Shown one piece after another: positions 11,787 to 49,121 of a stretch of 64,000 nt of DNA; position 1 is the first letter of the stretch, and every line of letters begins with the position of its first letter. The notes below the pieces were generated by a model. That model was not told the DNA's origin, searched no databases, and worked only from the letters and a program-made list of their open reading frames with translations. The position numbers and the translations under genes are program-made. Where the stretch lies: contig NZ_PVZF01000002.1 in NCBI RefSeq assembly GCF_003002055.1, positions 124,001-188,000 of the forward strand. The letters are read 5' to 3'. This DNA comes from Kineococcus rhizosphaerae. GTDB taxonomy: Bacteria; Actinomycetota; Actinomycetes; Actinomycetales; Kineococcaceae.

Positions 11787-11792
11787 GGGCGG

Positions 11793-11876
11793 ACCATCCA
11801 GAGCGGCCGAGAGACCTGGCTCGTCGACGCCGCAGCAACCCCTCGAGGGGTGCTCATGCCAGGACCGATGGGAGGA
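11793..11876 (+). promoter_or_regulatory. SAM riboswitch (S-box, SAM-I type) controlling translation
   Basis: S-box features in order: P1 strand CCATC (11794-11798), CAGAGCGGCCGAGAGACC, TGGCTCG, GACGCCGCAGCAACC, a small CCCTCGAGGGG stem, GGTGCTCATGCCAGG, and the closing P1 strand GATGG (11867-11871). The Shine-Dalgarno GGAGG (11871-11875) begins inside the 3' P1 strand, and the rhodanese GTG is at 11880. SAM binding, which stabilises P1, should therefore hide the ribosome-binding site. The conserved core is nearly identical to the copy at 48596-48690. It fits repression of the rhodanese-metZ-metE-like genes when methionine/SAM is plentiful. Confidence 0.9.
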
Positions 11877-14835: not shown

Positions 14836-15639
14836 ATGTCCGCGGGGGAGGCGGCGTGGGCGCTGTGGCAGGACTCGCCCTGGGGCCGGTTGCGGTACCA
14901 CGTCGTCGCCCGGTTGCTGCGGTCCTGGACGGCCGATCTCGGCGACGGGCTGCGGGTGTTGGACGCCGGTGGGGGCGACGGGCGCGACGCCCTGCCGTTC
15001 GCCCTCGCCGGGCACGAGGTGACGATCCTCGACCGGTCGCCGGAGATGCTCGCCCTCGCGCGGGCCGCCGCGGCGGCCGCCGGGGTCGCCGAGCGGGTCC
15101 GCACGGTCAGCGCCGACCTCGAGGACCTCACCGCCCTGGCCGCGCTCACCCGGCACCGCGAGGGTGGTTCGGGCTCCTTCGACGTCGTGTTCTGCCACGA
15201 CGTGCTGCAGCACCGCAGTTCCCACCAGCAGGTGCGGGCCGACGTCGCGACCCTGGTGTCCTCGGTGCGCCCCGGGGGCCTGGTCTCCCTGCTCGCGCCG
15301 AACCCGCCCGCCGACGTCGTCGCGACCGTGCTGCACGAGGGGCCCGCGGCGGCGTGGGTGACGCTGGACGCCGACCGGGCCGCCGACCCGGCGACCGGTC
15401 ACACGGCGCTGCGGTTGTCGCCGGAGTTCGTCGCCGACGCCCTCGCCGAGGCCGGGTGCGACGTCGTCGGCCGGGCCGGGGTGCTCGCCGTGACGGCGCT
15501 GCTGGAACTGCTGGGCGACGGCGGCCGCGTCGACGACCGGGTGGCGGCGGACCTGGAGGAGCTGGAGGTCGAGCTCAGCGCGCGGGTTCCGTTCGCCGGG
15601 ACGGCGCGGTACTGGCTGCTCGCGGGGCGACGACGCTGA
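14836..15639 (+). CDS. class I SAM-dependent methyltransferase
   Basis: 267 aa; ATG 5 bases after the MetE-like stop. Motif I VLDAGGGDGRDALPFA near residue 37, the motif II acidic residue in ILDRSPEM, and motif post-II FDVVFCHDVLQH. It resembles SmtA/CmoM- or UbiE-like methyltransferases. Its acceptor is unknown. As the last gene of the SAM-riboswitch transcript it links SAM use to SAM supply. Its 3' end overlaps the convergent FAD/NAD(P)-binding gene by 65 bp, a long convergent overlap. Confidence 0.85.
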   Translation: MSAGEAAWALWQDSPWGRLRYHVVARLLRSWTADLGDGLRVLDAGGGDGRDALPFALAGHEVTILDRSPEMLALARAAAAAAGVAERVRTVSADLEDLTALAALTRHREGGSGSFDVVFCHDVLQHRSSHQQVRADVATLVSSVRPGGLVSLLAPNPPADVVATVLHEGPAAAWVTLDADRAADPATGHTALRLSPEFVADALAEAGCDVVGRAGVLAVTALLELLGDGGRVDDRVAADLEELEVELSARVPFAGTARYWLLAGRRR

Positions 15640-17530
15640 CGGGCGTGCCGGGGTCGGTTCCGCCGGTGCCGGCGACCCGCAGCAGTTCCTGAGCCACCCG
15701 GTCGTTCAGCCGGAAGAACCCCGCGTCGAGGTTCGGCCGGGCGAACGCCGCCGCCCACCCGCCACCGGCCACCCACGGGCCCAGGCCGAAGCGCCGCGGG
15801 TGCACCGAACCGTCGGTGTGCACGAGCCGCTGAGCGGGGTCGACGACGAGCCGGCCGTTCCCGAGCTCGCTCACGTGGCCGCGGTGGGTCAGGTTGCGCA
15901 GCAACGGGTCCGCGCTGGCCGTGATCCGCGCTTCGGGCAGGCGGGCGTCGACCAGGGTGGTGGCGCTCACGACGGCGGGGGAGTTCGCCGACCGCGCCGT
16001 CCAGCAGCCGCCGACCTCGTCGGGGGCGATGCGCACGTCCCCGCCGAGGAACCGCACGACCCCCGCGTCGGCCAGGGCGAGGAGCTCGAGCAGCCGCCGC
16101 GGCGGGGGGCCGGAGGCGAGGTAGCTGAACAGCCCGTGCCACCAGCCGTCGACCTCGACGACGGACTCGGGGTCGAGGCGCCCGGAGTGGGCGAGGCCGG
16201 CGACCGTCACGTAGCAGGACAGCAGCGCGTGGAACACCGCGGCGTCCATGCTGTACGCCGGGTCCGCGCGGCGCGCCACGTCCGCAGCGACGTGGTCGTG
16301 GACCCGGCGGTGCACCTCCTGCGCCGACGACCCCCACCACCCGTCCAGCGGCCGGTCGAGGCGGTGCAGGTCGAACCGGTCCCGCGGGTCGGGCACCGCG
16401 CGGGACACGAGGTCGTCGAGGGCGGCCGACCCCCAGGGCAGCCCGGCGAACTCCCGGTCGAACCCGGGGGCGTCGCCGGTCGTGCGGCCGGGGTGGGACC
16501 GGAACAGCTCGTGGTAGTGGGCGCCGGCGAGCTCCTTGGCGACGAGCGGCCACAGGTCCCGGCGCAGGTTCAGCGTCCCGTGCGCTCCGAGGGCCTGCGG
16601 GGTGAAGAACCGCGGCAGCGGCGGACGCTCGTCGAGGACGTAGGTGATCTTCGAGCGGTACGGGACGCCGCGGCGGGACCCGACGTGCAGCACGGGCTCA
16701 CGCCCGCTGGGGTGGTAGACGAGCCCGTCCGGCCCGTCCGTGAAGCGGCCGCCGCGCCCCTGGGTGAGGAGCACCACCAGGTCCACGAACGCCAGACCCA
16801 TCCCCGCCACGAGGACATCGGCGCCGGGGCGCAGCGTGTCCTCGTCCTCGGTGAGCCCGAGGTCGCTGGTGTACCCGGGCTCGACGTAGCGCAGGCCGTG
16901 CCGGTCGGCGAACGCGCGCGCCGCCCGCTCCCGGGGACCGGGCACGACGTCGGGGTGACCCTGGGCCAGGACCACGGCGTCGACGACGAGCTCGGTCCCG
17001 TCCTCCAGGCGCACGGCCTGCCGCGCCGGGCCGGTCACCTGACCGGGCACCTGGTCGACCACGTCCACCACGCGGGTGCGGTGGGTGTGCAGCCGCACGG
17101 TCGGCGGCAGGTCCGTCACGACGCGCTCCCACGCCCAGCCGAGGTACCGGCTGCCCAGCGCCCGGGACACGAACGTCCCCTCCCGCACCCCGAGGACCTC
17201 GCGGCGCAGGGCCTCCTGCCCGGTCGCGGCGAACCCGGCGACGAGGTCGGCCCGGTGCTCGTCGAGCCACGCGTACAGCGTCGGGCCCGTCCGGACCGGC
17301 CCGTCGAGCCGGGAGGAGGCGTCGGGCAGGACGGTGACGTCCGCCGCGCGGGAGTTCATCCACAGCAGCGGGTGCTGGTCGGCGCGCCAGATGCGGCCCG
17401 CGCCGGCGGGGTGGGGGTCGACCACGTGGACGTCGACGTCCGCACCGGTCGCCGAGGCGTGCGCGCCGAGGCGGTCCAGCACCCCGAGGGTGCGGGGACC
17501 GGCGCCGACGAAGAGCAGGGACAGGCTCAC
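15575..17530 (-). CDS. FAD/NAD(P)-binding protein (PF13454-type)
   Basis: 651 aa; GTG at 17530 with AGGAG upstream. N-terminal FAD motif LLFVGAGPRTLGVLDRL, then HPLLWMNSRAADVTVLPD, a second dinucleotide site DVLVAGMGLAFVDLVVLL, and SYLASGPPPRRLLEL late in the protein. These match the large two-domain FAD-NAD(P)-binding proteins often annotated only by domain in actinobacteria. Immediately upstream is a 25-aa leader peptide with terminal Cys codons, so expression should respond to cysteine supply. I infer a role in sulfur-compound oxidation or reduction; no reaction is established. Confidence 0.8.
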   Translation of the reverse strand: MSLSLLFVGAGPRTLGVLDRLGAHASATGADVDVHVVDPHPAGAGRIWRADQHPLLWMNSRAADVTVLPDASSRLDGPVRTGPTLYAWLDEHRADLVAGFAATGQEALRREVLGVREGTFVSRALGSRYLGWAWERVVTDLPPTVRLHTHRTRVVDVVDQVPGQVTGPARQAVRLEDGTELVVDAVVLAQGHPDVVPGPRERAARAFADRHGLRYVEPGYTSDLGLTEDEDTLRPGADVLVAGMGLAFVDLVVLLTQGRGGRFTDGPDGLVYHPSGREPVLHVGSRRGVPYRSKITYVLDERPPLPRFFTPQALGAHGTLNLRRDLWPLVAKELAGAHYHELFRSHPGRTTGDAPGFDREFAGLPWGSAALDDLVSRAVPDPRDRFDLHRLDRPLDGWWGSSAQEVHRRVHDHVAADVARRADPAYSMDAAVFHALLSCYVTVAGLAHSGRLDPESVVEVDGWWHGLFSYLASGPPPRRLLELLALADAGVVRFLGGDVRIAPDEVGGCWTARSANSPAVVSATTLVDARLPEARITASADPLLRNLTHRGHVSELGNGRLVVDPAQRLVHTDGSVHPRRFGLGPWVAGGGWAAAFARPNLDAGFFRLNDRVAQELLRVAGTGGTDPGTPVSVVAPRAASTAPSRRTEPAR

Positions 17531-17566: not shown

Positions 17567-17644
17567 TCAGCGACAGGTGGCGGCCTGGGTGCGGCACAGG
17601 TCGACGTGGCGACGACGGACCAGCCGTCCGTTCGTCGCGCTCAC
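17567..17644 (-). CDS. 25-aa cysteine-type leader peptide upstream of the FAD/NAD(P)-binding gene
   Basis: GTG at 17644 with GGAG six bases upstream, stop at 17567-17569. The peptide carries LVRRRHVDLCRTQ and ends ATCR just before the stop. This is the actinobacterial 'putative leader peptide' signature (basic run, HVDL, then Cys-Arg near the C-terminus) found ahead of sulfur-uptake genes. Cys residues at positions 17 and 24 would stall ribosomes when charged tRNA-Cys is scarce. The stop lies 36 bases before the downstream GTG, suggesting attenuation through coupling or masking of that start. Known for related actinobacterial leaders; inferred here. Confidence 0.85.
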   Translation of the reverse strand: MSATNGRLVRRRHVDLCRTQAATCR

Positions 17645-39354: not shown

Positions 39355-40349
<995 letters not shown>

Positions 40350-40350
<1 letters not shown>

Positions 40351-41315
40351 CAGTGCGCCCCCTCCCGGGCCGTGCGGGGGTCGAGCACGTCCCGCAGCCC
40401 GTCCCCGACGAGGTTGAACGCCAGGGTCGCGGCGAACAGCGCCAGGCCGGGGAAGACGAGGAACATCGGGTCGGTCTGCACCCAGCCGATGGCGTCGGAG
40501 ATCGAGCGGCCCCAGCTCGGCGTCGGCGGCGGCACCCCGACGCCGAGGAACGACAGCGCCGCCTCCAGCCCGATGCGCTCGGGGATGGACAGCGTCGCGA
40601 TCACCACGACGGGTCCCCAGAGGTTCGGCAGGACCCGCCGGGTCAGCGTCCGCCACGTCGGGGACCCCATGACCTGGGAGGCGCGCACGAAGTCGCGCCG
40701 GGCCACCCCCAGCGTCGCCGAGCGCACCACGCGCGCCACCCGCGGCCAGCCGAAGAAGCCGATGACGACGACCAGCAGCAGCGTGCGCGGGATCGACGGC
40801 GGGGCCACGGCGCCGAGGGCGACCATGAACACCAGGTAGGGGAAGCCGAAGATCACGTCCCCGGTCCAGCCGACCACCCGGTCCCACCAGCCGCCCAGGT
40901 ACCCGGCGCTGGCGCCCAGGACGACGCCCAGGACGACGGCGACGACGGTGGCGAGCACCCCGATGAGGAAGGAGGTGCGGGCCCCGTGGGCGACGATCGC
41001 GAACAGGTCGCGGCCGGTCAGCGGCTCCACGCCGAACCAGTGCGTGCCGCTGACCCCGCCGAGCGCACCGGCCGGCAGCCCGGAGGCGGGGTCGAGGGCG
41101 TCGGGGTGGTAGCCGTAGGGGGTCTGGCCCGTGAGGCGGCTGATCAGCGGGGCCAGCAGGGCCAGCAGCACGAGCGCGAGGACGAGCACGGCGCCGACCG
41201 TCGCGCCCCGGCGGTCGAGGACGGCCCGGGCCAGGGCGGAGCGGCGCCACCGCCCGCGCGGGCGGGCGGGGGGAGGAGCGGACCCGTCCGGGGTGGACGG
41301 TGCGGAGCGGGACAC
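40350..41315 (-). CDS. DppC-type ABC transporter permease
   Basis: 321 aa from GTG at 41315. A longer frame to 41372 exists but would run into the hairpin at 41349-41377, so the shorter start is preferred. Pro/Arg-rich cytoplasmic N-terminus, then six membrane segments; EAA-like loop VRASQVMGSPTWRTLTRRVLPN and the conserved FGVEPLTGRDLFA. Overlaps the DppB gene by one base. Confidence 0.9.
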
Positions 41316-41348
41316 GGGAACACCTGGGGTCGGGGACGGTCGGGCGGG

Positions 41349-41377
41349 ACCCGGTGCGCCGGGGCGGCGCACCGGGT
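41349..41377 (-). terminator. perfect hairpin inside the sulfur operon
   Basis: 13-bp arms (ACCCGGTGCGCCG and its complement) around a 3-base loop, lying in the 71-bp gap between the second DszC-like gene and the DppC gene. No T-tract. It may be a partial terminator or an RNA-stability element that lowers Dpp-transporter expression relative to the oxygenases. Confidence 0.65.
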
Positions 41378-41386
41378 GTCCCGAGG

Positions 41387-42550
41387 TCAGGTGTACAGGG
41401 TGAAGTCCGGGTGGGCACCCGTGAGGAAGTGGTTCCCGACCTCGCGGGCCTTGTACTGCACCGGGTCGTGCAGGGTGTGCGTGCGCACGTTGCGCCAGAA
41501 CCGGTCGAACCCGTGCTTGTTCGCCGTCGCCCGTGCGCCGGTGACCTCGTAGATCGCCGACGTCGCCTCGACCGCCAGGTCCGACGACACGACCTTGAGG
41601 GCGGCGATCTCCTCGGCGACCTCTCCGCGCTCGGCCCAGGTGAGGTCCGCGCCGCGGGCGTGCGCCTGCGACAGCGACTCACCGACGCTGCGGCCCAGGG
41701 CTTCGGCTGCCCGCAGCCGCGCCACGAGCCGGCCGTACGTGGCGAGCACGTAGGGGTCCTCGACGGCCTTCTCGACGTCCGACAGCAGCCACGGCCGCGA
41801 CGTCGTGCGCGTGTACTCCGAGGCCGCCTCGAGCGCACCGCGCGTGACGCCGAGGTAGAAGTGGCCGAACGCGGCCTGGATCGAGGGCGTCACGAGCGAG
41901 CCGAACGCCCCGCTGGACGACGCCGACCCGAGGACCGCGTCCGGGGTGATCCGGACGTCGTCGAAGCGCACCGACCCCGACGCCGACAGCCGCTGGCCGA
42001 GGTTGTCCCAGTCACCGCCCTTGACGAAGCCGGGGGTCTCGCGCGGCACGAGGACGAGCAGGTCCCGGCCGTCGTCGGTGAGCCCGCCGACGAGGGTGAC
42101 GTCGCCGACGCTCGCGCCGGTCGAGAAGTTCTTCGTCCCGGACAGGACCCAGTCCTCCCCGTCCCGCGCCAGCCGCAGGTCCGGGTCGACCGGGTTCACC
42201 GAGTCGCCCCACAGCCACTGGTTCGCCACGCTCGGCACGCCCCAGCGGGCGCGGCCCGCGTCGTCGGCCACCCACACGAGGTTGTGCGCGTTGACGTAGT
42301 GGTAGGCGATGAGCTGGGCGATGGAACCGTCGGTGCGGGCGATCTCGCGCACGACCTCCAGCGCCACCGACCACGGCAGGCCCGCGCCGCCGATCGAGGC
42401 GGGCAGCAGGACGCTGGGCAGCCCGGCCTTGCGCAGCAGCTCGGCCTCGGTGAACGGTTCGGCGTTGGCGCGGTCGCGCTCGAGCGCGTCGAGGGCGAGG
42501 TGGTTCGCGACGTCGCGGGCGGCGTCGAGGACCTGTTCACGGGTGGTCAC
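41387..42550 (-). CDS. DszC/SfnB-type flavin-dependent oxidoreductase (acyl-CoA dehydrogenase fold), copy 2
   Basis: 387 aa; GTG at 42550. Acyl-CoA dehydrogenase fold: N-terminal helical domain with LLPASIGGAGLPWSVALEVVREIARTDGS, middle beta domain with LSGTKNFSTGAS, and the C-terminal RNVRTHTLHDPVQYK, the motif shared with dibenzothiophene monooxygenase DszC and SfnB rather than with fatty-acid dehydrogenases. Such enzymes use reduced flavin and oxygen to oxygenate sulfur compounds. Only 9 bp follow its paralogue, so the two are co-translated and may form distinct subunits or act on successive intermediates. Confidence 0.87.
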   Translation of the reverse strand: MTTREQVLDAARDVANHLALDALERDRANAEPFTEAELLRKAGLPSVLLPASIGGAGLPWSVALEVVREIARTDGSIAQLIAYHYVNAHNLVWVADDAGRARWGVPSVANQWLWGDSVNPVDPDLRLARDGEDWVLSGTKNFSTGASVGDVTLVGGLTDDGRDLLVLVPRETPGFVKGGDWDNLGQRLSASGSVRFDDVRITPDAVLGSASSSGAFGSLVTPSIQAAFGHFYLGVTRGALEAASEYTRTTSRPWLLSDVEKAVEDPYVLATYGRLVARLRAAEALGRSVGESLSQAHARGADLTWAERGEVAEEIAALKVVSSDLAVEATSAIYEVTGARATANKHGFDRFWRNVRTHTLHDPVQYKAREVGNHFLTGAHPDFTLYT

Positions 42551-42559
42551 GGTTTCTCC

Positions 42560-43804
42560 TCACACCCAGCCGTTGGCGGGCGGGTAGACGTCGAGCAGGG
42601 CGTGCCGGCCGAGGTGCTGCAGCTTCGAGCGGCGGGGGTCGTGCAGGGTGTGCGTGCGGGCGTTGCGCCAGTGCCGGTCCAGGTTCAGCGGCTTGGCCGC
42701 CGAGCGGGTGCCGACCAGCGCGAACACGTCCGAGGACACCGACACCGCGGCGGTGTCCGCCGCGGCGCGCGCGGCGGCGACGGCCAGGGACGCCTCGCCG
42801 GCGGACTCCTCCGTGAGGTCGGCGCGGGCGGCGTCGATCGCCGCCCCGGCCTCGCGCAGCAGGGCGTGCGCGGCCCGGGTGCGCAGCACGAGGTCACCGA
42901 CCTCCTGAGTGATCAGCGGGTCCTGCGCGGCGCTGGGCGCGCCGAACTCCGGCCACGGCCGGGCCACGGTCCGCACCAGCTCGGTCGCGTCGCGCAGCGC
43001 GGCCCAGGCGATCCCGACGTCGATCGCGGCGTGCAGGAAGTTCCCGAACGCGCCGAACGTCTCGGCCTGCTCGAACATCCGCCCCGCGGGCATGACGCGG
43101 TCGGCGTCGACGAGGACGCCCTCGAACCGGACCGTGCCCGACCCGGTCGTGCGCTGGCCCATGCCGATCCAGTCGTCCTGGACCGTGACCCCGGGGTCGG
43201 AGGCCTCCACCCAGGCCGCGACGAGGCGGCCGTCGGGGTCCTCGGAGCGGTCCGTGGCGTAGATCGGGATCCACGGCGCGAAGGGGGTCCCGGTGCCGTA
43301 GTGCTTGACCCCGTCGACGAGGTAGCGGCCGTCGGGCTGCCGCTCGAAGCGGATGTCGTACTCCCACGCCGTCTTCGACCCGCGCTCGGACAGCGCGTTC
43401 GCGAAGTGCCGGCCGGCGAGGACCTCGCCGTAGAAGAACCGCTGCTGCTCCAGCGTCCCCACGTGGTGCACGACGTCGACGAAGAAGTAGTGGTTCTGCG
43501 GGACCTGCCCGACGCTGGAGTCGCCCTCGGCCAGTTCGACGAACACCTCGCCCAGGTCCCGCGCGCCCAGGCCGGCACCGCCGAAGGACCGCGGGACCGT
43601 CAGACCGAGCAGGCCCGACGCGGCGAGCGCGGCGACCTCGGCGTGCGGCAGGCGGCGTTCGGCGTCGCGCTCGGCGTCGCCCTCGGCCAGCTGCGCGCCG
43701 AACCGCTTCGCGACGGCCAGGGCCTCCGCGGCGTCGGCGATGACGTGGGCACTCGTGGGGGCGCTCGTGGGGGCGCTCGCGGGAGCGCTGGTGGGGGCGC
43801 TCAC
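42560..43804 (-). CDS. DszC/SfnB-type flavin-dependent monooxygenase, copy 1
   Basis: 414 aa; GTG at 43804 in a GTGA overlap with the LLM monooxygenase stop. The first 17 codons include a (Ser-Ala-Pro-Thr)n repeat. Then the acyl-CoA-dehydrogenase-like fold: LTVPRSFGGAGLGARDLGEVFVELAEGDSSVGQ, VDGVKHYGTGTPFA, and C-terminal RNARTHTLHDPRRSK. Likely needs FMNH2 from a reductase not encoded in this operon. Predicted to oxidise an imported organosulfur substrate, in concert with the LLM enzyme. Substrate unknown. Confidence 0.87.
   Translation of the reverse strand: MSAPTSAPASAPTSAPTSAHVIADAAEALAVAKRFGAQLAEGDAERDAERRLPHAEVAALAASGLLGLTVPRSFGGAGLGARDLGEVFVELAEGDSSVGQVPQNHYFFVDVVHHVGTLEQQRFFYGEVLAGRHFANALSERGSKTAWEYDIRFERQPDGRYLVDGVKHYGTGTPFAPWIPIYATDRSEDPDGRLVAAWVEASDPGVTVQDDWIGMGQRTTGSGTVRFEGVLVDADRVMPAGRMFEQAETFGAFGNFLHAAIDVGIAWAALRDATELVRTVARPWPEFGAPSAAQDPLITQEVGDLVLRTRAAHALLREAGAAIDAARADLTEESAGEASLAVAAARAAADTAAVSVSSDVFALVGTRSAAKPLNLDRHWRNARTHTLHDPRRSKLQHLGRHALLDVYPPANGWV
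43754..43801 (-). repeat. 12-bp tandem repeat encoding (SAPT/A)4
   Basis: Four near-perfect copies of AGCGCCCCCACG (variants GCTCCCGCG and CCCACC) just after the GTG of the DszC-like gene, adding a Ser-Ala-Pro-Thr tail. It has the same unit length and the same position (immediately after the start codon) as the repeat at 3322-3387. Confidence 0.9.
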
Positions 43805-45177
43805 CGGTTCACCCGCTTGTGGCGGGCGGCGGGGTGGTCGTCGCGCACGTGGACCTGCCCCTTGCCGTAGATGGTCTCCCGCAACGTCTCGCCCTCGTAC
43901 TCGCTGGGGTAGACGCCACGGCGCTGCAGCTCGGGGACGACGAGCTCGACGATGTCCTCGAACGTGCCGGGGGTGATGGCGTACGCGCAGTTGAACCCGT
44001 CCACGTCGCCGACCTCCATCCAGCGCTGCAGCTCGTCCGCCACCGTCGCGGGGGAGCCGACGATCACCGCGCCCATGCCGCCGATGCCCACCCAGTTCGC
44101 GATGTCGCGCGGGGTCCAGCGGCGGTCCGGGTCGGCCGTGGAGAACGCCTCCACGGCGCTGCGGACGGCCTGCGTCTCGGCGTACTCCAGCGGTTCGTCC
44201 GGCGGGTAGCTGGACAGGTCCAGCCCGCTCCAGCCGCCGTAGAGGTTCAGCGCCCCGTCGTAGCTGACGAGCTTCGCGTACTCGGCGTGCTTGGCCCGCG
44301 CCTCCTCGTCGGTGGGGGCGGTGATGATCGTCACGAGCGTGAACACCTTCACGCTGCGCGGGTCGCGCCCGGCCTCGGCGGCCTGCGCGCGCAGCCTGTC
44401 CACCCAGGGGCGCATGACCTCCGGGCGGGTGGCGGTGTTGAAGATCGCCTCCCCGTGGCGGGCGGCGAAACCGATCCCGCGGGGGGAGGCGCCGGCCTGG
44501 AAGATGACCGGGGTGCGCTGCGGCGACGGGGCGGTCAGGCCGATGCCGGGGACGTCGAAGAACCGGCCGTGGTGCTCGATCGGGTGGACCTTCGCCGGGT
44601 CGGTGTACACCCCCGCCTCGGCGTCGCGGACGACGGCGTCGTCCTCCCAGGAGCCCTCCCACAGCTTGTAGACGACCTCCATGAACTCCTCGCCGAGCTC
44701 GTAGCGGTCGTCGTGCGAGATCTGGGTCGCCAGGCCCAGGTTCTTCGCCGCCGACTCCAGGTAGGACGTCACGACGTTCCAGCCGACCCGGCCGTTCGTG
44801 TAGTGGTCCAGCGTCGCCATCTTGCGCGCGAAAGAGTACGGCTGCTCGTAGGTCAGCGAGACCGTGACCCCGAACCCGAGGTGCTCGGTGACCGCGCCCA
44901 TGGCCGAGACCGCGAGCATCGGATCGCCGACCGGGACCTGCGTGGACTCGCGCAGGGCCGTCTCCGGGCCGCCCTGGTAGACGTCGTAGATCCCCAGGAC
45001 GTCGGCGATGAACAGGGAGTCGAACTTGCCGCGTTCGAGCAGCTTCGCCAGCTCGGTCCAGTACCGGATGTCGTCGAACCGGTGGGACTGGTCGTCCGGG
45101 TGGCGCCACAGGCCGGGGGACTGGTGCCCGACGCACGTCATGTCGAAGGCGTTGAGATGCACTCGGCGGTCGGACAC
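43801..45177 (-). CDS. NtaA/SnaA/DszA-family FMN-dependent monooxygenase (LLM class)
   Basis: 458 aa; GTG at 45177 with GGAG six bases upstream. LLM TIM barrel with the family hallmarks MTCVGHQSPGLWRHP, RVGWNVVTSYLESAAKNLG and QAGASPRGIGFAARHGEAIF. DszA opens sulfone rings, NtaA oxidises nitrilotriacetate and DmoA cleaves dimethyl sulfide, so a C-S bond cleaving role suits this operon. Requires reduced FMN. Sits between a CUT1-type permease and the DszC pair. Confidence 0.92.
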   Translation of the reverse strand: MSDRRVHLNAFDMTCVGHQSPGLWRHPDDQSHRFDDIRYWTELAKLLERGKFDSLFIADVLGIYDVYQGGPETALRESTQVPVGDPMLAVSAMGAVTEHLGFGVTVSLTYEQPYSFARKMATLDHYTNGRVGWNVVTSYLESAAKNLGLATQISHDDRYELGEEFMEVVYKLWEGSWEDDAVVRDAEAGVYTDPAKVHPIEHHGRFFDVPGIGLTAPSPQRTPVIFQAGASPRGIGFAARHGEAIFNTATRPEVMRPWVDRLRAQAAEAGRDPRSVKVFTLVTIITAPTDEEARAKHAEYAKLVSYDGALNLYGGWSGLDLSSYPPDEPLEYAETQAVRSAVEAFSTADPDRRWTPRDIANWVGIGGMGAVIVGSPATVADELQRWMEVGDVDGFNCAYAITPGTFEDIVELVVPELQRRGVYPSEYEGETLRETIYGKGQVHVRDDHPAARHKRVNR

Positions 45178-45188
45178 TTCTGGCTCCC

Positions 45189-46007
45189 TCACTTGACGGC
45201 CCCGGCGGACAGTCCGCCGACGAGCCACTTCTGCGCCACGACCGCGAGCACGTACATCGGGACGATCCCGACGAGCGAGGCGGCGGCCTGCTGGCCGAAC
45301 TGCACGGTGCGGTCGCCCTGGAACAGCGACAACCCGACCGGCAGGGTCTGGCTGGTCGTGCTCTGCGAGAAGGACACCGCGAACAGGAACTCGTTGTAGG
45401 ACAGGAACAGGCAGATCAGCAGCGCCGCGACCAGGCCGGGGGCCAGCAGGGGCAGGACGATGCGGCGCAGACCGCCGGTCGTCGACAGCCCGTCGACCCA
45501 GCCGGCCTCCTCGACCTCGATCGGGACGCGGCGCACGAAACCGTCGAGCAGCCACACCGCGACGGGGACGTTCGCCAGCCCGTTGACCAGGATCAGACCG
45601 AGCGCCGAGTTCGTCAGGTCGGCCTGCTTGAGCAGGTAGTACAGCGGCAGCACCGCGACGATCGGCGGTGCGCAGTAGCTGGCGAGCAGCACCGTCTGCA
45701 GGCGTTCCCCGCGCTGACCGGCGCGCGCCGTCACGTACGCCGCGGGCACGGCGACGATCGAGGTGAGGACCGTCGCGCCGATCGCGACGACCCAGGAGTT
45801 CGCCAGCATCGTCGACAGCGGGACCGTCGAGAAGGCCTTGGAGAAGTTCGACCACACGAACGCGCTGGGCAGCCAGCCGCCGTTGGCGATGTCGTCGACG
45901 CTGCGCAGCGACAGCGAGACGAGGAACAGCAGCGGCAGCAGGGCCACGAACGCCACGGCGGCCAGGGCGACGCGCACGCCGCCGCGGCGCAGGATCACGG
46001 TGTTCAC
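45189..46007 (-). CDS. CUT1-like ABC transporter permease (MalG type) of the sulfur operon
   Basis: 272 aa; GTG at 46007. Six membrane segments; EAA loop EEAGWVDGLSTTGGLRRIVLP, in which Gly-Trp replaces the usual Ala-Ala. LLASYCAPPIVAVLPLYYLLKQ is the typical MalG central span. 13 bp after the partner permease, 11 bp before the LLM gene. A carbohydrate-type permease in a desulfurisation operon is unexpected. Confidence 0.9.
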   Translation of the reverse strand: MNTVILRRGGVRVALAAVAFVALLPLLFLVSLSLRSVDDIANGGWLPSAFVWSNFSKAFSTVPLSTMLANSWVVAIGATVLTSIVAVPAAYVTARAGQRGERLQTVLLASYCAPPIVAVLPLYYLLKQADLTNSALGLILVNGLANVPVAVWLLDGFVRRVPIEVEEAGWVDGLSTTGGLRRIVLPLLAPGLVAALLICLFLSYNEFLFAVSFSQSTTSQTLPVGLSLFQGDRTVQFGQQAAASLVGIVPMYVLAVVAQKWLVGGLSAGAVK

Positions 46008-46020
46008 TGAACCTCCTCGC

Positions 46021-46971
46021 TCACTGGTCCGCCTTCACGGCGCGCGCCCGCAGCAGCGTGACGACGGTGGTCAGGACCCCCACGACGAGCCCGAAGACCA
46101 ACGTCTCCGCGGCCGCCGTGCCGATCTCGTAGCTGCCGCGCATGCCCGTCCGGAAGATCTCGAAGCTGCTGACGATGGTCGACACCCCCGGTCCGCCCTG
46201 GGTCACGACCGTCACCAGGTCGAAGACCTTCAGGCCGATGACGAGTTCCAGCAGCAGCACCGACCACACGTTCGGGGCGATCACGGGCCACACCACGTTC
46301 GTGAACGCGCGCAGGCTGCCCGCCCCGTCCAGCGCCGCCGCCTCCCGCAGTTCCTCGGGAACCCCCAGGAGCGCGGCGAAGACCAGCAGCGTCACCAGCG
46401 GCGTCCACTGCCACACGTGCATGACGACGAGCGCCCCGAACGCGCCCACGCTGTCGCCCAGCGGGTTGGCCCCCGGGAAACCCAGCGCGGAGAACAACCC
46501 GCCGAACGCGCCGCCGACCGGGGCGAGCATGAGCTTCCAGGCCACCCCGACCATGACGGGCGGGGTGACCAGCGGCAGGAGCAGGATCGTGCCGACGACC
46601 CCGAAGCGCGTCCCCCGGGCGTGCAGCAGCAGCGCGAGGGCGACGCCGAGCACCGTCGCCAGCACGGCGGCGAGGACGGCGAACACCACCGAACGCACCA
46701 GGGAGCCGGCGAAGGCCAGCGACTGCCAGGCGTCCACGACGTTGTCGGTGCCCGTGAAGCGCTGTAGAGGCCGGGCCAGCGAGGACTTCGTGACCGCCAG
46801 CGCCACGACGAACACCGTGGGGTAGACGAGCATGAGCGCGAGCCCGGCCAGGCTCGGTGCCGCCAGCCACGTGGACACGTGCCCGGGGCGGTGCCGGCCC
46901 GGCACCGCCCGCCGGGCGACGGCGTCGCGCTGGCGCGGCAGGGTCCGGCGTTCGTCGAGGAGCTGACTCAT
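46021..46971 (-). CDS. CUT1-like ABC transporter permease (MalF type) of the sulfur operon
   Basis: 316 aa; ATG at 46971 in an ATGA overlap with the binding-protein gene. Six membrane segments after a 30-residue Arg-rich tail (RRTLPRQRDAVARRAVPGR). EAA loop REAAALDGAGSLRAFTNVVWP. Forms a heterodimer with the downstream MalG-type permease. The matching MalK-type ATPase is not in the window. Confidence 0.92.
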   Translation of the reverse strand: MSQLLDERRTLPRQRDAVARRAVPGRHRPGHVSTWLAAPSLAGLALMLVYPTVFVVALAVTKSSLARPLQRFTGTDNVVDAWQSLAFAGSLVRSVVFAVLAAVLATVLGVALALLLHARGTRFGVVGTILLLPLVTPPVMVGVAWKLMLAPVGGAFGGLFSALGFPGANPLGDSVGAFGALVVMHVWQWTPLVTLLVFAALLGVPEELREAAALDGAGSLRAFTNVVWPVIAPNVWSVLLLELVIGLKVFDLVTVVTQGGPGVSTIVSSFEIFRTGMRGSYEIGTAAAETLVFGLVVGVLTTVVTLLRARAVKADQ

Positions 46972-48344
46972 CCGAGCGTCTTCTCCCAGCTCTTCGCGGC
47001 CTCGTCGAGCGCGGCCTGCGGCTCGGTCTTGCCCTGGATCGCCAGCGCGAGCTGGTCGACGAGGTCCTGCAGGGCTTTCGGCGCGCCCTGCTGCGACGGC
47101 CAGGCCAGCGGGTCGCCGTCGAGGCCCTCGCGGATCGTCTCGGTCGCGATGCCCGCGGCCTTGGCGTAGTCGGCGGAGTCGAGGACCGTCTTGCGCGCCG
47201 GGTCGATGCCCGAGCCCGCCGTGGAGGCCAGCAGGAAGTTGTTCTCCTCGTTCGTCGCCCACTTCACGAAGGCGGCGGCCTTGTCCTGCTGCTTGCCTGC
47301 CGTGGAGACGCCCAGGCCGAACCCGGCGTCGAGCGCGGTGCGGGGCTTGGTGTTCTTCCCCCCGACGGGCAGCGTCACGACGCCCCACTTGTCGACGATC
47401 TTCGAGCTGGCCGGGTCCTGCGCCTTCAGGCCCAGGTCGGTCCAGGTGTCGAGCATGGCGCCCTGACCGGACAGGAACGCCGAGTTGGCCTGGTCGAAGC
47501 CGGTCTGCAGGGGCGTCGGCAGGGCGTGGGGGGCGACGTCGATGAGGTGCTGCAGCGCCGCGAGCCCCTCCTCGCCGTTGAACGCGGCCCCGCCGTCGCC
47601 GTCGACGAGCGTGCCGCCGTAGCCGGCGAGGCGGTTGATGAAGGAGCAGCCCAGGATCATCGGGACCTGCTGGCCCTCGACGATCGCGCCGTACACGCTC
47701 CCGCCGGAGTCCTTCGTGATCTTCTCGGCGGCCGCGTCGTAGTCGTCCCAGGTCTTCGGCGGCTCGACGCCGTACTTCTGGAAGACCTCGGCGTTGTAGT
47801 AGAGGACGTGGGTGTCGCCGTCGAAGGGCAGGCCGTAGCGCTTGCCGTCGATGAGCGTGTACGGGTCGTAGATGGACGGCAGGAAGTCGTCCGTGCGGAT
47901 GTCGTCGTTGGCGTCGATCCACTTCGTCAGGTCGACGAGGGCGCCGGCGTCCACGAGCTCGCCGAGGCCGAAGTAGAAGTAGTCGAAGACGTCGAACTCG
48001 CCGTCGCCGCCCTGCACGTCCAGGATCTGCTTGCTCGTCAGCTGGTCGTAGGGGATCGCGGTGACCTCGACCTTGCCCCCGAACTCCTGCTCGAACTTCT
48101 TGCCCAGCAGGTCCGTGAAGGCCAGCACGTGGGGCTGGTTGACCATGAGCTTGAGCGTGGCGCCCTTGAGGTCGACGGCCTTGCCGGCGGCCAGGTCGGA
48201 TCCGGTCGAGCCGTCGCCGCAGGCGGCCAGGGTGCCGGTCGCGGCCAGCGCGCCGACGCCCAGGGCGCCGGACAGGACACGGCGGCGGGAGGCGATCAGG
48301 CGCTGGGTGCTCGCCGGGGAGGAGGTGCGCAGGGGCGCGGACAT
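46968..48344 (-). CDS. family-1 ABC substrate-binding lipoprotein of the sulfur operon
   Basis: 458 aa; ATG at 48344 with CGGAG seven bases upstream. Signal with consecutive Arg (ASRRRVLSGALGVGALA) and lipobox TLAAC, lipid Cys near residue 42. Family-1 fold with FDYFYFGLGELVDAGALVDLTKW, GLPFDGDTHVLYYNAEVFQKYGVEPPKTWDDY and GILGCSFINR-like segments. First structural gene after the riboswitch and leader peptide, so probably the most strongly sulfur-regulated. Ligand could be a sulfur-containing sugar, sulfonate or other neutral organosulfur compound; the sequence alone does not say. Confidence 0.9.
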   Translation of the reverse strand: MSAPLRTSSPASTQRLIASRRRVLSGALGVGALAATGTLAACGDGSTGSDLAAGKAVDLKGATLKLMVNQPHVLAFTDLLGKKFEQEFGGKVEVTAIPYDQLTSKQILDVQGGDGEFDVFDYFYFGLGELVDAGALVDLTKWIDANDDIRTDDFLPSIYDPYTLIDGKRYGLPFDGDTHVLYYNAEVFQKYGVEPPKTWDDYDAAAEKITKDSGGSVYGAIVEGQQVPMILGCSFINRLAGYGGTLVDGDGGAAFNGEEGLAALQHLIDVAPHALPTPLQTGFDQANSAFLSGQGAMLDTWTDLGLKAQDPASSKIVDKWGVVTLPVGGKNTKPRTALDAGFGLGVSTAGKQQDKAAAFVKWATNEENNFLLASTAGSGIDPARKTVLDSADYAKAAGIATETIREGLDGDPLAWPSQQGAPKALQDLVDQLALAIQGKTEPQAALDEAAKSWEKTLG

Positions 48345-48447
48345 GGGTGTGCTCCGTGGGGGTGGGCGGACGATCGTCGTCCGTCGTGGGTGCGCGCGGG
48401 AAGCGGCGCGCTCGCCTGAGGACCGTGGGGGAGGGCGTGCGGGTCGG

Positions 48448-48588
48448 TCAGACCGCGCGCGGCGTCCCCGGACGCAGGGCGTGCGTCGACCGGGCCGGGC
48501 GACAGGCCATCGAGGCCGTGCGACCGAGGTCGACGTGGTAGCGGCGGGTGAGCCGCGTGCCGGGTCGGGGCTGGGTACAGCTGTCCAC
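48448..48588 (-). CDS. 46-aa cysteine-type leader peptide following the SAM riboswitch
   Basis: GTG at 48588 with GGAGG seven bases upstream (48596-48600), stop at 48448-48450. The peptide contains TRRYHVDLGRTASMACR at residues 14-30, the actinobacterial leader-peptide motif (basic run, HVDL, Gly/Cys-Arg, Cys-Arg), and an early Cys at position 4. A 16-residue tail after the motif is longer than usual. Its Shine-Dalgarno sequence is formed partly by the closing stem of the SAM riboswitch, so SAM should control its translation, while Cys-tRNA availability should control ribosome stalling within it. The binding-protein ATG lies 103 bp downstream. Confidence 0.85.
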   Translation of the reverse strand: MDSCTQPRPGTRLTRRYHVDLGRTASMACRPARSTHALRPGTPRAV

Positions 48589-48595
48589 TGCGAGT

Positions 48596-48690
48596 CCTCC
48601 ATCGCCCCTGGCGGGAGCACCTGCCGCTCGCGCGGTGGTTGCTGTGGCGTCAACGAGCCAGGTCTCTCGGCCACTCTGGATGGTGTTGGT
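48596..48690 (-). promoter_or_regulatory. SAM riboswitch (S-box, SAM-I type) ahead of the organosulfur operon
   Basis: Read on the minus strand: P1 strand CCATC (48683-48679), CAGAGTGGCCGAGAGACC, TGGCTCG, GACGCCACAGCAACC, a GC-rich stem, GGTGCTCCCGCCAGG, and P1 strand GATGG (48603-48599), which runs into AGG to give the GGAGG of the leader peptide. The core matches the riboswitch at 11793-11876 almost base for base, including the overlap of P1 with the ribosome-binding site, so both are predicted translational OFF switches. A TACGCT at 48699-48694 is a candidate -10. Confidence 0.9.
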
Positions 48691-48699
48691 CGCAGCGTA

Positions 48700-49121
48700 G
48701 CGGACACCGGGGGCGGCCGGGGACCGATCGCGCCGCGCCTCGCGCCTCGCCCGGCGCCGGGCTGGCGGTGACGACCCGCGACCCGGCGCGGCCGGTCGTC
48801 CCGGCGGCCCTTGTGCGACACTGAGCGTGGCCGAGCGTTCCCCGACACCGGGCGCCCGGCCCGCCGTCGAGACCGCCGCCCAGCGCGCGGGTCCCGGGCA
48901 GCGCCGCGGTCCAGTGGAAGGGCCTCGCAGGCGCCCCGTGCCCGTTCGCCGGACGACGACCGCCGGCGGCCCGGGGGGAGCACGCGCCGCGCGAACCCCT
49001 CCGGTGCAGCGAGGACTTCCGTCGGGTGCGGGACGACCCGCCCGACGATTCCGACGAGGACGCCCGAGCGTCCGCGGGGTTCACCGGTGGAGCGGGCGCT
49101 GCGGGCCCAACGGAGCGACCC
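48700..49121 (+). other. 422-bp region between the riboswitch and rne; probable rne promoter and long leader
   Basis: No gene with a convincing start or family match. In-frame extension of rne to GTG 49026 is possible but lacks a ribosome-binding site. Divergent promoters for the sulfur operon and for rne must lie here, though I see no strong -35/-10 pair for rne. A long untranslated leader would fit rne, whose mRNA is autoregulated through its 5' UTR in other bacteria. Confidence 0.4.

Follow-up and report, generated by a model that had tools for sequence, protein, structure and literature searches.

A SAM-I riboswitch stacked on a cysteine-register leader peptide ahead of a sulfur-acquisition operon in Kineococcus rhizosphaerae, and its recurrence among actinobacteria

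The intrinsic terminator is the common expression platform of S-box (SAM-I) riboswitches but is not required for membership of the class, and in arrest peptides of the tnaC type, which work with Rho, conserved residues of the nascent chain stand at a fixed distance from the stall codon. At the ppe2 locus of Mycobacterium tuberculosis, a B12 riboswitch is described as masking the Shine-Dalgarno (SD) sequence of uPPE2, a short translated reading frame needed for the downstream gene (PMC11260477), and a SAM-I riboswitch of Xanthomonas is reported to sense uncharged initiator tRNA as well (PMC7270179). Actinobacterial cys operons have short ORFs with Cys codons ahead of them and no terminator, and Rho was suggested by the authors (PMC1262725). 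PMC8079986 and PMC3890552 name leader peptides as well as SAM or SAM-IV riboswitches; in the parts of these papers available to us, the two are not stacked. A literature search by titles and abstract openings, with partial coverage, found no description of a SAM riboswitch stacked on a leader peptide, of the nine-residue register or of the UGU codon reported below.

The DNA analysed here, referred to as the window, is a stretch of 64,000 nt from Kineococcus rhizosphaerae (RefSeq assembly GCF_003002055.1, contig NZ_PVZF01000002.1, positions 124,001 to 188,000), and positions are those of the window. An earlier note, made from the letters of the window, had placed an S-box riboswitch on its minus strand. 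A cmscan search with the RF00162 covariance model bore this out, matching the whole model (1-108) at 48686-48596 (minus strand) with 54.9 bits against a cut-off of 44.4 (E 1.6e-10). The model alignment puts the GATGG of the P1 3' strand at 48603-48599, the coordinates given in the note, and its partner CCATC at 48683-48679. As had also been proposed, this GATGG continues into AGG to form a GGAGG SD (48600-48596, minus strand) located 7 nt ahead of the GTG of a short ORF. All of the GGAGG falls within the P1 3' strand of the model because P1 in the RF00162 alignment is ACACCAUC/GAUGGAGG, a helix with two non-standard pairs, and standard P1 pairs are formed by three of the five GGAGG bases. The run from GATGG into an SD-like stretch (GGAG, GGGA or GGGG) was found at 84/86 SAM-I sites of the genus and 76/85 other sites of the order, and the P1/SD pairing has no covariation support because GATGG hardly varies. 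Like other SAM-I members, the locus matches the whole model above the cut-off; it differs from them in having a short leader's SD in P1 in place of a terminator platform or the SD of a gene. A classical transcription attenuator, with a terminator hairpin and U run after the leader, was considered and rejected, since the terminator scan found no terminator-like site in 48250-48850.

Just 5' of the aptamer lies a -10-like hexamer, TACGCT (48699-48694, minus strand), and a transcript from it would begin at the 5' edge of the aptamer. The pattern TANNNT recurs 7-28 nt upstream of the P1 CATC at 59/86 genus sites and 59/85 other order sites, as against 1/343 (genus) and 11/336 (order) same-length control stretches further upstream; a narrower -10 motif was found at 55/86 and 54/84 sites. 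No TTGACA/TATAAT consensus promoter was found near the stack by a consensus scan.

The ORF behind the GGAGG extends from the GTG at 48588-48586 to 48448 (minus strand) and comprises 46 codons and a TGA; related leaders stand at other sites of the genus. Its conserved core, RRYHVDLGRTASMAC (48546-48502), is of the type RRYHVDLGR..C, with the Asp codon at 48531-48529 and a UGU Cys codon at 48504-48502, exactly nine residues on. The reading frame and the core of the 46-residue peptide with a HVDLGR...CR motif, as the earlier note had described it, were thus confirmed, and the peptide type recurs. Its RR-H-V-D-L-x-R...C core, including the Asp-to-Cys distance of 9, is like that of the NCBIfam 'putative leader peptide' family NF042934 (cis_reg_atten) and the Cys-rich NF042933 and NF042936, but the peptide scores below all three cut-offs (21.2 bits against 27 for NF042934; 17.5 and 15.2 bits against 45 for NF042933 and NF042936). 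The NF042934 cut-off was passed by 3/10 leaders of one set (31.9, 27.9 and 27.6 bits) and 5/8 of another, and two leader variants with VVDQ/VVDE cores gave no NF042934 match at E up to 1. Over five orthologue groups the leader frame has a coding signature (pS 0.31, pN 0.14) and the other two frames have no synonymous excess (pS/pN 0.19/0.18 and 0.13/0.22); among the orthologues of the window leader itself the contrast is weak (pS 0.265, pN 0.205). That a short ORF had arisen by chance behind an ordinary SAM riboswitch would agree with the low score of the window peptide and with the occurrence of weak NF042934 matches (E up to 10) in 10/14 control genomes, none of them above the cut-off. We consider it hardly credible, given that orthologues in seven congeners keep the aptamer, the spacing and the motif and that the arrangement recurs across the genus, the order and beyond.

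The genus survey covered 11 genomes with 86 SAM-I sites, two of them below the cut-off, and the sequence after each site was read. A leader stands behind the P1/SD element at 40 of the 86 sites, in all 11 genomes, and at 7 of the 12 SAM-I matches in the window's own genome. Thirty-eight of the 40 are short ORFs with a [VIL][DE][LFH]...C motif, at least one per genome; the two others, G000:C14:17539 (L001) and G001:1252805, are an orthologous pair without Cys. By script, the P1/SD element precedes a long ORF at 41 sites, and the remaining five sites have short ORFs that lack the leader motif. Four of the scripted long-gene sites (G001:1225918, G004:126895, G005:1351514 and G009:1705719) look like misread short ORFs, orthologous in appearance to those five. 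The 48 genus sites left after the 38 with the motif, the Cys-less pair among them, showed no leader motif in any of three frames within 500 nt downstream; at 3 of the 86 sites the contig ends within that distance. With a leader directly behind the P1/SD at 40/86 sites and no motif further on at those 48, the position of leaders behind P1/SD is more than chance. Comparison of the locus in related genomes, which had been suggested with the original observation, identified the same stack in the seven congeners, where six counterparts precede the same solute-binding gene and that of G006 instead precedes the monooxygenase gene (read by eye).

Several further arrangements were seen behind SAM-I sites of the genus. 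In L001 and L016, which have a high-scoring SAM-I (64.1 bits), the HVDL core is intact and the terminal Cys is absent; perhaps only the riboswitch input remains there. In the metY leaders of G002:C5 and G004:C10 we used an in-frame ATG start, for which GGGAGAGGA in the first copy of GATGG serves as the SD, and the RF00162 match extends to the second GATGG. A third class consists of Cys-less ORFs of 16-22 residues (for example, MRTTDVVAPHPVPGRGTVR) at a GATGGAGT/C P1, represented by L002 and likely orthologues (G000:C9:280460, G002:C9:229348, G006:C14:41351, G007:C143:5193 and G008:C59:135920). The window itself contains a second SAM-I (11791-11874, plus strand; 51.1 bits) with no leader, whose GATGGGAG P1/SD directly serves a gene for a 133-residue rhodanese-like protein, followed by a sulfhydrylase-type PLP-enzyme gene (names by eye).

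Beyond the genus, a sample of 99 genomes of the order, six of them from the genus, contained 48 genomes with a SAM-I match. Taking in 85 of 88 order sites, with the three weakest matches left out, a leader was found stacked at 15 of the 85 sites outside the genus, in five families including the window's own. One further site, G093:C139, where a leader core starts but the contig stops short, was left uncounted, and G026:C184 was dropped as a spurious motif match, so that 55 of 56 stacked leaders of genus and order were kept. A wider pattern scan of the genome collection, requiring the aptamer core and CGATGGAGG, returned at least 118 stretches. Among the matches listed, 64 of 122 classifiable sites had a leader, 48 a gene and 10 another short ORF, a proportion that is not a random frequency given the pattern scan and the post-hoc widening of the motif, which raised the leaders from 32 under the strict motif to 64 once VDQ/VDE-type cores seen in a first look were admitted. 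The genera with leaders among these matches were Amycolatopsis, Lentzea, Saccharothrix, Pseudonocardia, Rhodococcus, Actinokineospora and Blastococcus. At class level, the 30 best-scoring SAM-I loci (L341-L370) yielded no leader (0/30). Their P1 is CUCAUC/GAUGAG, differing in type from the GATGGAGG P1, and the gene after most of them we take to be threonine-synthase-like from its opening residues. On the 0/30 count, we rejected the idea that every SAM-I of the class has a leader stacked on it.

Leaders of the same type also occur without SAM-I. A search of the genus with NF042934 gave 41 matches of at least 21 bits, 17 behind a SAM-I site and 24 elsewhere. Nineteen of these 24 were examined and, with one lacking a usable Cys removed, 18 formed the solo set. 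A SAM-IV riboswitch precedes 4 of the 19, in four congeners, with 104-105 bits (cut-off 38) and 13-27 nt to the leader start codon; a SAM-IV near L097 is on the opposite strand and is not stacked. The genus has 46 SAM-IV sites, and 4 of the 21 examined (3/20 plus L101) have a leader. From these combinations the aptamer gates on leaders look modular. SAM-I and SAM-IV also occur as divergent, back-to-back pairs at three loci of the window's own genome (G000 C9:266215/266408, C9:280460/280714 and C8:77724/77477; L013, L002 and L012). In the window, a solo leader at 17567-17644 (minus strand; 27.4 bits to NF042934) is of the same type with neither SAM-I nor SAM-IV stacked on it, and a gene of FAD/NAD(P)-binding type by its opening residues (15575-17530, minus strand) begins 36 nt after it. 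An in-frame GTG six codons upstream of this leader is 6 nt after a TACCCT and so may be the start of a leaderless transcript. A gene with an opening similar to that of 15575-17530 has a SAM-I stacked leader elsewhere in the same genome (C14:5341), and this paralogue scores 31.9 bits to NF042934.

Judged by these matches, the stack is not peculiar to the window locus: several families of actinobacteria have it, and another class of SAM riboswitch, SAM-IV, can take the place of SAM-I in it. Of the interpretation given in the earlier note, the genuine SAM-I match, the supply of the leader SD by P1 and the recurring leader type of sulfur genes all stood.

The leaders were compared in an ungapped, Asp-anchored alignment of 137 sequences, made up of the 55 stacked leaders, the 64 of the wide scan (among the matches listed) and the 18 of the solo set. 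Cys is exactly nine residues after Asp in 134 of the 137, an exception being the G059:C62 leader, in which it is out of register. Arg is found at -4 from the Asp in 112 of 114 distinct cores and at +3 in 106. Selection had used Asp as the anchor and required a Cys about 5-14 residues on, and the wide motif favoured R, K or L near +3; neither the exact spacing of nine nor the Arg at -4 was a requirement. The Cys at Asp+9 is encoded by UGU in 113 of 116 leaders (49/52 in genus and order and 64/64 in the wide set, among the matches listed), and the remaining Cys codons in these leaders are UGC in 95 of 114 cases (46/49 and 49/65). Counted per distinct core, orthologues not being independent, UGU was found in 43/46 and 47/47. 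The solo leaders have UGU in 17/18. An earlier codon count based on the last Cys in range had given 48/53 UGU; the Asp+9 count is the one used. In the genes downstream of the stacks, the Cys codon is UGC in 64 of 67 cases.

From the conserved UGU, decoding would be the sensitive step; in actinobacteria a single tRNA generally serves both Cys codons. One reading of these data, which we hold to be rather unlikely, places plain attenuation at a cysteine codon in series with the riboswitch; the nascent chain then takes no part in stalling and the conserved residues serve some other end. It is favoured by the nearness of the Cys codon to the stop in most leaders and by UGU being the rarer Cys codon downstream (3/67), but the fixed nine-residue spacing and the conserved D and R are not needed by classical attenuators and resemble the constraints on arrest peptides. 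The conserved segment lies 6-13 residues before a near-invariant codon, which would fit the demands of nascent-chain arrest. The earlier note had let charged Cys-tRNA fix the stall site, which covers just one side of the picture given by the sequence: a fixed Asp-to-Cys distance with conserved residues ahead of the Cys suggests a contribution of the nascent chain, as in an arrest peptide, as well.

The same features bear on whether the riboswitch alone might control the operon, for example via Rho with the leader left untranslated, the peptide sequence being irrelevant. The same P1/SD precedes long genes that have no leader, and Cys is absent from two leaders, as this reading would allow; it is nevertheless quite improbable in view of the in-frame conservation, the common register and the UGU, and of leaders of the same type that exist without SAM-I or SAM-IV, such as 17567-17644. 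The presence of the P1/SD before full-length genes also argues for the element being a start-site switch for whichever ORF follows, leader or gene, and makes it natural to read SAM as the signal that would turn off translation of the leader. Such control by SAM, which we infer here, is well supported by the anatomy, and with the SD positioned in P1, control at leader initiation would be the simplest form.

As had been noted, the stack stands ahead of an operon, and its genes proved to be of the sulfur-acquisition kind. All on the minus strand, they encode an extracellular solute-binding protein (46968-48344; PF01547), two ABC transporter permeases (46021-46971 and 45189-46007; PF00528), an NtaA/DmoA-family FMN-dependent monooxygenase (43801-45162; TIGR03860, 574.6 bits against a cut-off of 279.7), an SfnB-family sulfur acquisition oxidoreductase (42560-43804; TIGR04022, 455.7 bits against 430.9), an SfnB/DszC-like oxidoreductase of the acyl-CoA-dehydrogenase fold that is under both cut-offs in profile searches (41387-42550), and two oligopeptide-type ABC permeases (40350-41372 and 39355-40350; PF00528, PF19300). 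On these assignments the operon looks like one for organosulfur scavenging, and the genes downstream of the other stacks look sulfur-related by their opening residues (read by eye).

Between the leader stop and the solute-binding gene lies a gap of 103 nt (48447-48345, minus strand) with 53% C and 24% G, a candidate Rho-loading region. Leader-gene gaps of 31-259 nt had C>G in 49/49 loci (49 of the 55 leaders; 52% C, 28% G), compared with 8/13 intergenic stretches of the window and 19/53 stretches upstream of aptamers; gene starts have C>G as well (49/52), so that the gap composition is only suggestive. The window leader has 17 residues between the Cys and the stop, and most leaders stop 1-7 residues past the Cys; with 17 residues beyond it, a ribosome stalled at the Cys of the window leader would not cover the gap. 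A small hairpin, GGACGA-CGA-UCGUCC (48382-48368, minus strand), is located upstream of the main SD, and its GGAC/GUCC base was seen by eye in 6 of 7 aligned loci, the window locus included.

Instead of acting through Rho, a stalled ribosome could prevent the first gene's SD from being masked by RNA structure. A mycobacterial cysteine-codon uORF reportedly acts by such translational attenuation, and over 47 loci the mean predicted SD accessibility was 0.435 with a ribosome at the UGU against 0.366 without (0.366, 0.435 and 0.451 by ribosome position), changes of more than 0.05 with the ribosome at the UGU being upward at 20 loci and downward at 6. At the window locus, however, the predicted accessibility is flat across ribosome positions (0.45, 0.47 and 0.45), no shared sequestering helix between leader and main SD is visible in five group alignments, and the gap varies widely in length and sequence. 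We regard this reading as unlikely, and the small mean folding shift, with none at the window locus, leads us to prefer Rho over SD sequestration, though it does not prove it.

Taken together, a SAM-gated leader attenuator with two inputs, its operon on only under low SAM together with low cysteine, is the best explanation and a fairly probable one. As the first input, SAM would close the S-box P1 including the leader SD, so that the leader would be translated only at low SAM. The second input would be the R-x-[HV]-[VI]-D-[LQ]-x-R segment 6-13 residues ahead of the near-invariant UGU: ribosomes would stall at the UGU when Cys-tRNA (or cysteine) is short, probably aided by the nascent chain in the exit tunnel. 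A stalled ribosome would keep the operon on; a leader that is untranslated, or read without stalling, would leave the C-rich gap open, and the transcript would be cut short, most likely by Rho, or alternatively the first gene would remain untranslated. We infer both the stalling and a Rho step in place of a terminator. Such a circuit would make physiological sense in that untranslated and freely translated leaders would both mean off.

The proposed circuit can be set against the systems described above. It would resemble the ppe2 relay in that a riboswitch masks the SD of a short ORF, the translation of which is suggested in the window by the SD in P1 and the coding signature; unlike the relay, the window stack has another ligand and a conserved peptide with a Cys register, and in place of the AUGA overlap of uORF and gene with re-initiation the window locus has no stop/start overlap and a 103-nt gap (PMC11260477, in the part available). 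It would be similar to the Xanthomonas riboswitch in that SAM-I affects translation and a further input comes by way of tRNA, but there the tRNA binds the RNA directly and the available part of the report does not mention a leader peptide (PMC7270179). The cys leader peptides likewise combine a short ORF with Cys codons, the lack of a terminator and a proposal of Rho, and differ in having runs of Cys codons near the stop, with no riboswitch on the leader mentioned in the available part of that paper (PMC1262725). As in tnaC-type systems, the spacing of residues to the stall codon is fixed and a Rho output is proposed; the peptide and the ligand are different, and stalling is predicted here. 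The stack is thus a recurrent composite of known parts, and as far as the literature search reaches the combination is new.

More tentatively, it is possible that these loci represent a widespread actinobacterial composite class, in which synthesis of an arrest peptide would depend on a SAM aptamer (SAM-I or SAM-IV) and the peptide would read cysteine supply through its nine-residue register to the UGU, so that an RNA sensor and a nascent-chain sensor would form in series a natural AND gate for sulfur starvation. The rule of UGU and register provides a testable handle on how the leader peptides catalogued by NCBI might stall ribosomes, a mechanism left open in the cited papers, so far as their available parts go. 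Recurrence of the pairing in many actinobacteria suggests a two-input sulfur sensor. If this is true, riboswitches would be pluggable onto leader peptides as interchangeable gates, and actinobacteria would combine SAM and cysteine, the two ends of sulfur assimilation, in one mRNA leader.
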